DNA of 55,651 nucleotides, from assembly GCA_022824225.1 (NCBI GenBank), contig JAJEAH010000018.1:1-55651 (forward strand). The letters run 5' to 3'. The translations under genes were made by a program, and so were the position numbers. This document shows, in pieces, positions 17,882 through 24,045 of the stretch. The notes beneath the pieces were generated by a model. It ran no database searches. It was not told the DNA's origin and was given only the letters and a program-made list of their open reading frames with translations. The stretch is from Chloroflexota bacterium. Lineage in GTDB: Bacteria > Chloroflexota > UBA11872 > VXOZ01. Each line of letters starts with the position of its first letter. Positions within the stretch are counted from its first letter, which is position 1.

Positions 17882-19204
17882 TCAACCCTCGCGGGTGCTC
17901 ACGCTCAAGTCCGCCACCAGCAACGGCGGCGCGTAGAAGCTGCCCCCCACCCATTCCGGTTCGCTGCCCAGCGCCGCGATATTCTTGAGGGCGTCGTAGG
18001 TGTTGCCGGCCACCATCGTATTCTTGACGCGGCCCGCCAACTTGCCGTGCTCGATCTTGTAGCCCAAGAGCACGTTGCCGGAAAAATCGCCGGAAAACAG
18101 GTTGCCCATGGACGCGCCCATGGTGTATTCCACCAGAATGCCTTCATCGATGCCGCCGATGATGTCGGCCAAGCTGCCGTCAGTCCCCGGCGCAATTACC
18201 GCGTTGTGGTAACCCGGCGCAGGCAGGGAGTTGGGCGAGCGCTCGCCGTTGCCGGTGGGTTCGGCGCCGGCCAAGCCCGCCGTTTGCAGATCGTAGATGA
18301 ACGAACGCACGTAGCCGTCTTCCACCAGCGGCGTGCGCCGCAGGGGCATGCCCTCGTCGTCGGCGGGCGCGGAGCCCACGGCATGGTCGATGGTGCCGTC
18401 GTTGTAGATGCTCAGCTTTTCGTCGAACACCTGCTCGCCCAGCCGCTCGCCCAACGGCGAGGCCCCCTGCAGCACGGTCTTGCCGTTGAAGGCTTGGCGC
18501 AAAGGGAGCATCAACGTTGCCCCCAAGCCCTGGGGCGTAAAGAGCACCGGCATGTGCTTTGTGGTCACGGTAGCGGTTTCACGGGCGTCTTCCACGCGTT
18601 GGATGATACGCTGCGCCACCGCCTGGGCATCGACGTCGGCCCGGCACGAGACCGCATAGTGCCACACGTCCAGAATGTCCTCACCCCGCGTGAGATTGAT
18701 ACTGCCGCCCAACGACACCACGGACTTCTGATAGGCCGTGCCGCCGCCGCGCGAGTTGCGCAGTTCCACCCGCGAGACGCGGCGGGACGCGCCCACGTCG
18801 CAGAGGAAGTCCTTGTCATGGTCACGCAAGAGGTCTAGCGCCGTTGTGCCCAGCGTCACCAGATCGTCCAACGCCAGGGCTTCCACCGCCGGATCGAAGA
18901 TTGTCACGCCGTTGGCCGTGTACGCGCTGGGCAGCGTGAACCTCGCCTCCGCGCCAAACTCGGCGGACTCCACCGCGCTTGCCACCAGCGTATCAAGATC
19001 GTCCGGCCCATCCAGCTTCGTCGAGTAGCCCAGGCCGATGCGCCCATCCTTGACGATACGCAACGCCATGCCGCTGGACTGGCTGGCGTTGATGGACTTC
19101 ATACGATTGGCTTCGAATGAGATTGGGAGCTCGGTAGACTCGTGGTAGAGCGCCTCCGCCACTTCCGCCTGCTGTCGTGCTTCATCCAAGAGTGCGTCCA
19201 GCAT
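17882..19204 (-). CDS. pmbA: TldE/PmbA metalloprotease subunit
   Basis: ATG 19204 lies 4 nt after the tldD stop with GGGAGG 11 nt upstream, giving 440 aa (E. coli TldE is about 450). Recognisable segments include STELPISFEANRMKSINASQ, MALRIVKDGRIGLGYSTKLD, MPVLFTPQGLGATLMLPLRQ and AVIAPGTDGSLADIIGGIDE. TldE is the non-catalytic partner that shapes the chamber of the heterodimer with TldD, which degrades unfolded or small peptides and matures some RiPP precursors such as microcins. Third gene of the degV-tldD-pmbA operon. Confidence 0.94.
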   Translation of the reverse strand: MLDALLDEARQQAEVAEALYHESTELPISFEANRMKSINASQSSGMALRIVKDGRIGLGYSTKLDGPDDLDTLVASAVESAEFGAEARFTLPSAYTANGVTIFDPAVEALALDDLVTLGTTALDLLRDHDKDFLCDVGASRRVSRVELRNSRGGGTAYQKSVVSLGGSINLTRGEDILDVWHYAVSCRADVDAQAVAQRIIQRVEDARETATVTTKHMPVLFTPQGLGATLMLPLRQAFNGKTVLQGASPLGERLGEQVFDEKLSIYNDGTIDHAVGSAPADDEGMPLRRTPLVEDGYVRSFIYDLQTAGLAGAEPTGNGERSPNSLPAPGYHNAVIAPGTDGSLADIIGGIDEGILVEYTMGASMGNLFSGDFSGNVLLGYKIEHGKLAGRVKNTMVAGNTYDALKNIAALGSEPEWVGGSFYAPPLLVADLSVSTREG

Positions 19205-19208
19205 GTGG

Positions 19209-20567
19209 CTACTGCCCTCCCACCAAGCACTTGCTAATGAGCACGTGGGGGCTGCCGTCGCCCACGGGGGCCGACTGCCCGCCCTTGCCGCAGGTGCCTC
19301 CCGCCGGGTCCCAGGCAAAGTCATTGCCTACGGCGACGATGTTCTCCAACGTCGTGAACACATTGCCCGAAAGATTCACGCCCCGCAGCGGCTCAGCCAG
19401 CTTGCCGTCGCGAATGGCGTAGGCTTCCATGCAGGAGAACGTGAACATTTCCATGCTCGTCTGGCCGCCGTACCAGTTCTTGCAGTAGACGCCGTCTTTC
19501 ACCTCCGCGAGCATGTCTTCCAGCGGCGTTTCCCCGGGCTCGATGGCAGTATTGCGCATGCGCACCAGCGGCGGCACACGGTAGCTCTGAGCGCGGGCGT
19601 TGCCGGTGGGAGTCTCGCCCATCTTGCCCGCCGTTTCCCGTGAGTGCAGCCGTCCCACCAATTCGCCCTCACGGATAAGGTATTGCTTGCCCGTGGGCAC
19701 GCCCTCGTCGTCGTAGGCAAACGAGCCGGTGAGGCCGGGCACTTTTCCGCTGTCCGCGATATTGAGGAATTCGCCGCCGAACTTGCGGCCCAAGACCATG
19801 ATCTCTCGCAGTTTATCGTTCTCGTAGACGTGGTCGGCTTCGGAAAGGTGCCCAAAGGCCTCGTGGGCGAAGACGCCGGCCAAGGTCGAATCCAAGATAA
19901 CCATGAATTCGCCGCCTTTTGGCGGTGTGGCGTCCAGCATGGCCACGGCTTTTTCCGCGGCTTCCCGCACCTCGGCGTGCTTGCCTTCCACCACGCCGTA
20001 GTCTTCGTTGCTGGCAAACCCCGCGCGGGCTTGCTGCACGTTGCCGTTGTCACGCGCCACCACGCCAAAGTGAGCGGTCACGCGGCCGCGCTCCTGCTCG
20101 ATATACGCGCCCGTGGAGTTGCCGAAGTACTGCTTGCGGTAACTGTCGCCGTAGCGCACCGTGGAGGTCTGGATCTTCGGCGTGCGCCAGATCTCTTCGA
20201 CATACGAGTCCATGAGGCGCTTCTTCTCCGCCAGCGGCACTGCCCCCGGATCGCGCCGCATGGTGACGTGCACGACGTCGTGCACCGGCGCCACGTCCGC
20301 AAGCTCAGTCTTTTCCGCGCCGACTATGCGCGCTTGGCTGGCGGCCTGCGCGACCTTTTCGCCCAGGTCCTCAACGCGGTTGAACGAGACAAACCCCCAG
20401 CCGCCATTTACGGCCGCGCGCACACAGCCGCCGAGTTGCGTGGTGGTACCCACTTCCTCCAGGTCTTTTCCCCGGTAGGTGATGTTGGTGGATTTCGTCT
20501 CTTCGACGCGGATTTCCACATAGTCCGCGTTGTGCCGCTTTAGCGCTTCCTCAATGCGTTCCCGCAT
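19209..20567 (-). CDS. tldD: TldD zinc metalloprotease subunit
   Basis: The 452-aa product carries the TldD zinc motif HEAFGH (HExxxH, about residues 239-244) in VFAHEAFGHLSEADHV, then the TldD region YDDEGVPTGKQYLIREG and the cysteine in AGGTCGKGGQSAPVGDG near the C-terminus. It forms a heterodimer with the downstream PmbA/TldE in the cytoplasm. The start is 8 nt after the degV stop, so the three genes are probably one transcript. No RiPP precursor or gyrase-poison gene is seen near, so the substrate is open. Confidence 0.95.
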   Translation of the reverse strand: MRERIEEALKRHNADYVEIRVEETKSTNITYRGKDLEEVGTTTQLGGCVRAAVNGGWGFVSFNRVEDLGEKVAQAASQARIVGAEKTELADVAPVHDVVHVTMRRDPGAVPLAEKKRLMDSYVEEIWRTPKIQTSTVRYGDSYRKQYFGNSTGAYIEQERGRVTAHFGVVARDNGNVQQARAGFASNEDYGVVEGKHAEVREAAEKAVAMLDATPPKGGEFMVILDSTLAGVFAHEAFGHLSEADHVYENDKLREIMVLGRKFGGEFLNIADSGKVPGLTGSFAYDDEGVPTGKQYLIREGELVGRLHSRETAGKMGETPTGNARAQSYRVPPLVRMRNTAIEPGETPLEDMLAEVKDGVYCKNWYGGQTSMEMFTFSCMEAYAIRDGKLAEPLRGVNLSGNVFTTLENIVAVGNDFAWDPAGGTCGKGGQSAPVGDGSPHVLISKCLVGGQ

Positions 20568-20575
20568 GAATGGGG

Positions 20576-21433
20576 TTACTCCTTGTGAAACGTGACGCCC
20601 ACGGCGCCGGGCCCCGCGTGGGTCCCAATAGCCGGGCCGATGGCTCCTGACAGAATGTGCGTGGCGGAGACGCGGCTCAGGCAGGCTTCCTGCAATTCTG
20701 CCGCAAAGTCGGGCGCTGCCGCGTGCATCACGCCAAAGTGGGTGAGCGTGCGGTCTTCCCCGGCCACGGACTCGACATACGTCTGAATGCGGTCGATAAC
20801 CCGGGAACGGGTGCGCACACGGTCGAGGACATCGATCGCGCCGTCCTGGATCGTGAGCACCGGCTTGATGCGGAGCAACGACCCCAACAGGTGCGACGCC
20901 GCGCCCAGGCGGCCGCCGCGCCGCAAGTATTCCAGGGTGTCCGGCGAAAAGGCCACGTGCATGAGGTCGGCCACGTACTTGACATGGTTGACGATGCGGT
21001 CCGCGGGGACGTCTTCCCCTGCCAGCCGGGCCGCTTCCCGCGCCATATAGGCTACCCCCAGAGAGGCCGACTGCGTATCCACCACGTGAACTGTACTGGA
21101 GGACTCTTCCTGCAACTGTTGCGCGGCCGTCAAAGCGGATTGCACCGTGCCGCTGAGCTTGCCGGAAACATGGATCGAGACGATGTGTTCGTGGTCCTGG
21201 GCCAACTGCCCGTAGACCTCGGCAAACTCGCCCGCCGAAGGCTGGGACGTCTGGGGCAGGTCGCGAGATTCCGACAGCATGTCATAGAACTTGTCGCCGG
21301 TGATGTCCACGCCGTCCTTATAGTCGATGTCCCCAAAGCGCACGTGGGCGGGCACGACGGAAATACCAAACTCAGCGGCTTCTGTGAGGTCCAGATCGCT
21401 GGTGCTATCGGTTACGATGGCAATCGCACTCAT
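20576..21433 (-). CDS. DegV family fatty-acid-binding protein
   Basis: ATG 21433 with GAGAGG about 9 nt upstream gives 285 aa. Features are the N-terminal IAIVTDSTSDLDL (about 4-16), the conserved TSQPS segment (PQTSQPSAGEF, about 65-75), VSIHVSGKLSGTVQSA and VVDTQSASLGVAYMAREAAR, and the second-domain strand RIKPVLTIQDGAIDVLDRVR. DegV/FakB proteins bind a fatty acid and present it to the kinase FakA. No fakA is in the window. First gene of the operon with tldD and pmbA. Confidence 0.92.
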   Translation of the reverse strand: MSAIAIVTDSTSDLDLTEAAEFGISVVPAHVRFGDIDYKDGVDITGDKFYDMLSESRDLPQTSQPSAGEFAEVYGQLAQDHEHIVSIHVSGKLSGTVQSALTAAQQLQEESSSTVHVVDTQSASLGVAYMAREAARLAGEDVPADRIVNHVKYVADLMHVAFSPDTLEYLRRGGRLGAASHLLGSLLRIKPVLTIQDGAIDVLDRVRTRSRVIDRIQTYVESVAGEDRTLTHFGVMHAAAPDFAAELQEACLSRVSATHILSGAIGPAIGTHAGPGAVGVTFHKE

Positions 21434-21938
21434 GCCGAATTCCTCTCTCGCTACTACTAGACGTCGTTGTCTATGCGTGCGGATAGCTACTGCACCACAA
21501 CAAGCCACTGCCCGCAACTCAGGGTCACGTGGCGGGCTGGGGCAACTTCGTTGCCGCCACCCACGCTATACTAACATGCGTGTGGCAGTCAACTACGCAC
21601 GCGGGTAGAGCCTGGGGACGTCCCACACCCTAGCGTAGCACGACTCGCCCTGCCGCAATGTGAAGATTGTGTGAACCTTCAAGCATCGTTCCCGTTCCGG
21701 GCTCGACCCAGACACCGGCCGGCAGCGCTCTTGCCCGCCCGGGGCGGCTGTGCCTCCCGCCCTGCCGCATCGCCCGCAGCCCTGCTGACACGGACAGACG
21801 GGCGCGAAACCCCTTACAATGAAGAGAGCATTTGTGCTTTGAGTCGCGCAAATGACCTATGGCGGGCCGGTATTCTCGTCCGGCGCGCCCCGCATGGCAA
21901 ACGAACTCGGCACACCGGCCCAGGAGGAGGCAGCGAGC
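21434..21938. other. 505-bp divergent intergenic region
   Basis: It separates the minus-strand degV operon from the plus-strand epimerase. A TACAAT box near 21816-21821 may serve the epimerase. I see no gene, RNA or strong repeat in it. Confidence 0.45.
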
Positions 21939-22787: not shown

Positions 22788-22958
22788 GCGCGCCGCCCGG
22801 CGCCGGACTACCCCGTCGCGCCGCGCGCAGCCTGGACGCGCCGCCGCCGCGCGTGCGAGCAGGTTACCGGTTACTGCGCTGCCGCCCGCGCCACGCCGCG
22901 CCGCAGGACCGCACGGCGGCGGCAACGCGCTCGCGTTCGCGTTCGCTGTGTAGGGAAT

Positions 22959-22967
22959 TGCTATACT
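22959..22967 (+). promoter_or_regulatory. extended -10 promoter for selD
   Basis: TGC-TATACT with no -35 match. Expected start near 22974, 28 nt before the selD ATG. Confidence 0.5.
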
Positions 22968-23001
22968 TAAGGCAGCTAGCACGCCTCCGAGGAGCAAGAT
23001 C

Positions 23002-24045
23002 ATGGCAGCACCGGTACGCCTCACCAGCTTGGCGTCCTGCGCCGGGTGAGCGGGTAAACTCGGCCCCGCCGAGCTCGCGCAGGTCCTGCGCGCCCTGCCC
23101 GCACAAGCCAATAGCAATCTGCTGGTGGGCCTTGCCGCGCCGGACGATGCCGCCGTCTACCGCGTAAGCGACGAGCAGGCCATCATCAGCACGGCGGACT
23201 TTTTTCCTCCCGTTGTAGACGACGCCTACGCCTTTGGGCAAATTGCGGCGGCAAACGCCCTGAGCAACGTCTACGCCATGGGCGGCGAGCCGCTGGTCGC
23301 GCTGAATCTGGCCGGCTTTCCCGAAGACCTCGACCTGGACATTCTCGGCCGCATTTTTCAAGGCGGCGCGGACAAAGTGGTGGAGGCCGGAGCCGTGATC
23401 GCGGGCGGCCATACGGTGACCGACGAGGAACCCAAGTACGGCCTGGCGGTCACCGGTCAGGTCCACCCGGACCGCATCTTCACCAAGGGCGGCGCGCAAC
23501 CGGGCGACGCGCTAGTGCTGACCAAACCCATCGGCACCGGCGTGATCACGACAGCCCTCAAGCGCGATTGCGTGGCGCAGGCCCATTTGGATGAAGCCGT
23601 CGCCAGCATGTCGCGCCTGAGCGCCGGCGCGGCGAAGCTCTTGCGCGGCTGCAATATCCACGCCTGCACCGACATCACCGGCTACGGCTTGCTCGGCCAC
23701 GCCATGGAAATGGCGCGCCACGGCAACGTCCGCTTCGAAATCATCGCGCAGGCCGTCCCGCTGCTCTCCGGCGCGCTCGCCTACGCCCAAGACGACGTGG
23801 CGCCCGGCGGCCTAGACCGCAACCGCGCGCACCTCGAAACTGAGGGGCTGCTCACGCTGGACGAGAGCATTGCCCCCGCGCTCGCCATGCTCCTCTTCGA
23901 CCCCCAGACCAGCGGCGGCCTGCTGGCTGCCGTGCCGCCGCAGGAACTAGCCGGCCTGGAAAACGCCTTCCGCGCCGCCAACGAGCCCCTCTGGCACATC
24001 GGCGCCGTGAGCGAGGGCAAGGGGATTACCATTACCTCAGGTTAG
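23002..24045 (+). CDS. selD: selenide, water dikinase, UGA-encoded selenocysteine form
   Basis: SelD makes selenophosphate from selenide and ATP for selenocysteine and selenouridine synthesis. ATG 23002 has GAGGAG 7 nt upstream. The N-terminus reads PVRLTSLASCAG, then TGA (23047-23049, codon 16), then AGKLGPAELAQVLRALP; the frame runs open to the stop at 24045. Counting UGA as Sec gives 347 aa, the same length as E. coli SelD. Sec16 aligns with catalytic Cys17 and Lys19 with Lys20 of E. coli. Further family motifs follow: STADFFPPVVDDAYAFGQIA, NALSNVYAMGGEP, GGHTVTDEEPKYGLAV, TDITGYGLLGHAMEMA and FDPQTSGGLL. Read without UGA recoding, the gene is cut to start at 23125 and loses its active site. 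selA, selB and tRNA-Sec are not in this window. Confidence 0.92.
23050..23073 (+). promoter_or_regulatory. candidate bacterial SECIS hairpin in selD
   Basis: Just after the UGA two alternative stems can form: CTCGGC-CCC-GCCGAG (23059-23073), or GCGGG (23050-23054) pairing with CCCGC (23065-23069) with a 10-nt loop that contains GG. The position is right for a bacterial SECIS read by SelB. The C-only loop of the first form is atypical; the second fits better. Folding was done by eye only. Confidence 0.5.

Follow-up and report, generated by a model that had tools for sequence, protein, structure and literature searches.

A selD gene of a Chloroflexota bacterium with an in-frame UGA codon, probably read as selenocysteine, at the catalytic position

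The selD gene described here lies in a 55,651-nucleotide stretch of DNA from a Chloroflexota bacterium (assembly GCA_022824225.1, contig JAJEAH010000018.1; hereafter the window), and is with high probability (about 97% by our estimate) a functional selenoprotein gene in which the UGA at codon 16 would be read as selenocysteine (Sec). Sec-containing SelD is an experimentally verified prokaryotic selenoprotein family, the second largest, with the motif UxxK (PMC13188914). As such proteins have long been known in prokaryotes (PMC1794560, PMC4561486, PMC13188914), this selD is a further Sec-SelD of an already known kind. It shares with Sec-SelD/SPS2 (TIGR00476) the protein family, the catalytic Sec, a Lys at +3 and a bacterial SECIS (bSECIS) after the UGA, and we observed no difference in kind; the context here is C-A-G-U-A-G-K, which has a Cys at -3 but not at +2. 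On this reading, this Chloroflexota genus would use selenocysteine in SelD itself as well as in formate dehydrogenase, and a gene call that halts at the UGA would lose the active site of an enzyme that all selenoprotein synthesis needs.

Sec-SelD genes, a well-known kind, are prone to truncation by ordinary gene finders. The selD reading frame (Table 1) is broken internally only by the TGA at codon 16 and is terminated by a TAG ending at 24045, and the open reading frame that begins at the first start codon past the TGA encodes 306 amino acids without the active-site loop of SelD. The coordinates, ribosome site, codon-16 TGA and 347-residue length given in the original prediction were exact when we re-read the sequence. 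Initiation at the ATG is supported by the congeners, which carry an in-frame ATG or GTG at the matching codon; neither a sigma-70 promoter nor a terminator was found around selD. The product matched TIGR00476 with 371.2 bits (cut-off 125), consistent with full-length SelD homology, and in alignments with relatives the UGA codon fell at the catalytic position, occupied by Cys or Sec, with Lys at +3. Escherichia coli SelD (PDB 3u0o) was homologous over its whole length, and its alignment bore out the proposed correspondence of Sec16 and Lys19 with Cys17 and Lys20 of that enzyme, which differs in having Cys in place of Sec, a C-G-C-K context and no UGA. PDB entries 2yye and 2zod, which we take to be SelD of Aquifex aeolicus, are also homologous and likewise lack the +2 Cys (G-C-A-A-K), but the deposited sequence has Cys at the catalytic site and none at -3.

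Table 1. Features of the selD region (positions are those of the window)
Feature	Position	Strand	Basis
selD, coding for a selenide, water dikinase of 347 aa that includes predicted Sec16	23002..24045	+	reading frame; TIGR00476; SelD entries of E. coli and Aquifex in the PDB
Shine-Dalgarno-like AGGAG, ATG 7 nt downstream	22990..22994	+	sequence
In-frame TGA, codon 16, predicted to be read as selenocysteine	23047..23049	+	reading frame and conservation among relatives
Cys13 codon TGC, 3 residues upstream of Sec; may stand in for the +2 Cys of other SelD lineages	23038..23040	+	alignment/tree of relatives
Lys19 codon, opposite catalytic Lys20 of E. coli SelD	23056..23058	+	alignment
Predicted hairpin CUCGGC-CCC-GCCGAG, between the UGA and the SECIS hairpin	23059..23073	+	folding
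Candidate bacterial SECIS hairpin, stem CGCGCAG/CUGCGCG (7 bp), loop GUC, 33 nt past the UGA	23076..23092	+	folding, published limits, codon constraint
GTG, earliest in-frame start past the TGA, where a conventional gene call would probably begin wrongly	23125..23127	+	sequence

The TGA was conserved among relatives of this gene. We searched 41 genomes of the class and found 38 SelD genes, all 38 of which had TGA at the catalytic codon; in one of these (genome G010) the TGA was present but the gene was frame-broken. The named congeners, which are Chloroflexota metagenome assemblies, encode proteins 83-84% identical to this SelD and have TGA at the same codon. Because the congeners and every other SelD found in the class share it, the in-frame TGA is not a matter of chance. 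In a set of 106 distinct SelD proteins, drawn from the class genomes and a named public set, the codon was TGA in 92 and TGC or TGT in the remaining 14. This agrees with the earlier statement that SelD carries Sec or Cys at this site, and relatives with an ordinary non-Cys sense codon, which were to have spoken against the prediction, numbered 0 of 106.

The genome from which the window derives (3.37 Mb, 95% complete) contains the genes that would be needed to decode UGA as Sec. Predicted to lie outside the window, selA, selB and tRNA-Sec were all found there: selA at C49:32040-33392 (SelA 572 bits, over cut-off), selB at C30:137343-139196 (373 bits, over cut-off) and a tRNA-Sec with anticodon UCA at C3:83904-83999 (67.1 bits, cut-off 47). 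Together these constitute the Sec-decoding trait, and the absence of selB and tRNA-Sec that would have counted against the prediction was thus not observed. The SelB protein carries two winged-helix SECIS-binding domains, SelB-wing_2 and wing_3. Among selenoproteins other than SelD, where fdhA was checked by family, we identified formate dehydrogenase alpha (FdhA) as a second one, with the Sec context NVDSCNRT-U-HAPSVVGLATV. The fdhA gene is split over two contigs just past its UGA (G000:C63:1-300 and G000:C60:1-1628); the end of C63, with the Sec motif, and the start of C60, with the remainder, overlap by 34 identical bases, on which we joined them.

Across the 41 genomes of the class, tRNA-Sec over cut-off was present in 34 and SelB in 36. 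One genome (G011, 96% complete) had no SelD, and neither SelB nor tRNA-Sec over cut-off, which is a coherent absence. Another (G036) encoded a SelD with TGA, yet neither SelB nor tRNA-Sec was found in it; as this draft is only 89% complete, the gap is probably due to missing contigs. tRNA-Sec was also not found in three incomplete drafts (G005, G006 and G022).

An Rfam search of positions 22900-23400 at a relaxed threshold returned no match, and we therefore measured the hairpin downstream of the UGA against the published limits for bSECIS elements, which are a spacing of 16-37 nt, a stem of 4-16 bp and a G within the first two loop positions (PMC13188914). The selD hairpin fell inside these limits, and within the interval 23050-23110 in which a SECIS had been proposed. 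Its base-pairing probability in context was 0.90-0.996. Hairpins within the limits were present in all 92 Sec copies, with at least 6 bp in 85 of them, and those of the Cys-SelD copies (n = 14) were mostly shorter or misplaced. When the region from +21 to +50 was compared with synonymous recodings of each gene, the mean folding z was -1.34 for Sec copies (n = 92) versus -0.26 for Cys copies (n = 14), which had no extra stability; these means are descriptive only, as SelD copies are related to one another. Among six species of the genus, 12 of 15 scorable post-UGA codons were identical in all, compared with 55 of 219 elsewhere in selD (Fisher P = 3e-5), indicating constraint beyond coding need. 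The UGA of fdhA, which encodes a different enzyme in the same genome, is also followed by a hairpin with a 7-bp stem and a GUC loop, which differs from that of selD in lying closer to its UGA (19 nt versus 33 nt, counted to the loop). Six Gemmatimonadota-type Sec-SelDs (L109, L114, L115, L117, L119 and L130) had no hairpin at +33 and instead had a GGUCC-GGN-GGACC hairpin about 17 nt past the UGA, indicating that the position of the SECIS varies between SelD lineages.

We considered two other explanations for the TGA. It might be a sequencing or assembly error or a true stop codon in a pseudogene, with the protein beginning at 23125, and the origin of the sequence in a metagenome assembly would allow for this. 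However, five congeners, assembled independently, have the same TGA, as does every other SelD gene found in the class, the protein is conserved on either side of it, and the later start would remove the catalytic residue together with Lys19. An error or pseudogene is very improbable and already contradicted by the relatives. Alternatively, a conventional tRNA, either that for Trp or a near-cognate one, might decode it in place of Sec, as has been proposed for insect SPS1-UGA; the proposal concerns a SelD homologue in Hymenoptera (PMC4561486). We judge this just as improbable here, as the genome encodes all of the Sec machinery as well as another Sec protein, the site alternates with Cys only, and a SECIS-type hairpin lies downstream of the UGA.

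Decoding of the UGA as Sec would proceed as follows; the insertion of Sec, the binding of SelB and the activity of the enzyme are all predicted from sequence. Translation would initiate at the ATG, and SelB bound to the SECIS-type hairpin would bring Sec-tRNA(Sec) to the UGA at codon 16, with elongation past this codon yielding a SelD whose catalytic residue is Sec. This enzyme would convert selenide and ATP to selenophosphate, from which SelA may form more Sec-tRNA(Sec) to be used in making both SelD itself and formate dehydrogenase.

The U-A-G-K sequence was described in the original prediction as an altered GxCxK context; it is less unusual than that description implies, as it is normal for a lineage with Cys at -3. 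Among the 106 SelD proteins, 68 had Cys at -3 only, 32 at +2 only, six at neither position and none at both. The Chloroflexota-centred lineage has the context C-A-G-U-A-G-K, with the Cys at -3 and Ala, Ser or Gly at +2 as the rule, and other lineages have U-x-C-K, with the Cys at +2. We consequently dropped the idea that U-A-G-K is an odd or degenerate active site. In a quick likelihood tree, which included the active-site columns, the proteins with a -3 Cys were close to monophyletic, in a Chloroflexota-centred clade within which this Cys had been lost twice; L032 and L035 have lost the -3 Cys and have not gained one at +2. The idea of repeated compensating relocation of the Cys was weakened by this tree.

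As a tentative supplement to Sec decoding, and compatible with it, the -3 Cys and Sec16 might form a C-x-x-U redox pair that replaces the function of the +2 Cys. In the Chloroflexota-centred lineage, the helper thiol close to the catalytic Sec would then have moved from +2 to -3, where a thioredoxin-like C-x-x-U pair could conceivably give rise to a selenenylsulfide and serve to handle selenide or to protect Sec. That the two Cys never co-occur is consistent with this possibility, but we regard it as rather doubtful, since the two proteins that dropped the -3 Cys acquired none at +2, and the pattern may be lineage history. Because the tree shows essentially one switch, the exclusion is mostly a single historical event and backs a functional exchange only weakly. 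The pattern offers a small testable point on selenium handling by SelD.

No match to SelU/YbbB (TIGR03167) or to YqeB (TIGR03309), the latter of the selenium-cofactor trait, was obtained in the source genome, and its SelD therefore probably serves Sec synthesis alone. The Chloroflexota Cys-SelDs formed two separate groups in the tree. In one (L064, L065 and L068) tRNA-Sec was kept, with SelB over cut-off in two of the three genomes. In the other (L083, L091, L102 and L107) there was no SelB over cut-off, no full SelU and only weak tRNA-Sec matches, but YqeB was present in three of four genomes. These patterns fit the rule that SelD tracks the selenium traits of the organism (PMC5029168). The genomes of L083, L102 and L107 (G044, G046 and G047) are Anaerolineae-like and combine Cys-SelD and YqeB without SelB or full SelU; the selenium-cofactor trait is probably the sole use of SelD in them, following the loss of selenocysteine. 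Elsewhere in the window, an adjacent pair of TldD/PmbA-family metallopeptidase genes occupies positions 17882-20567 on the minus strand, and is adjoined by a DegV-family gene at 20576-21517.
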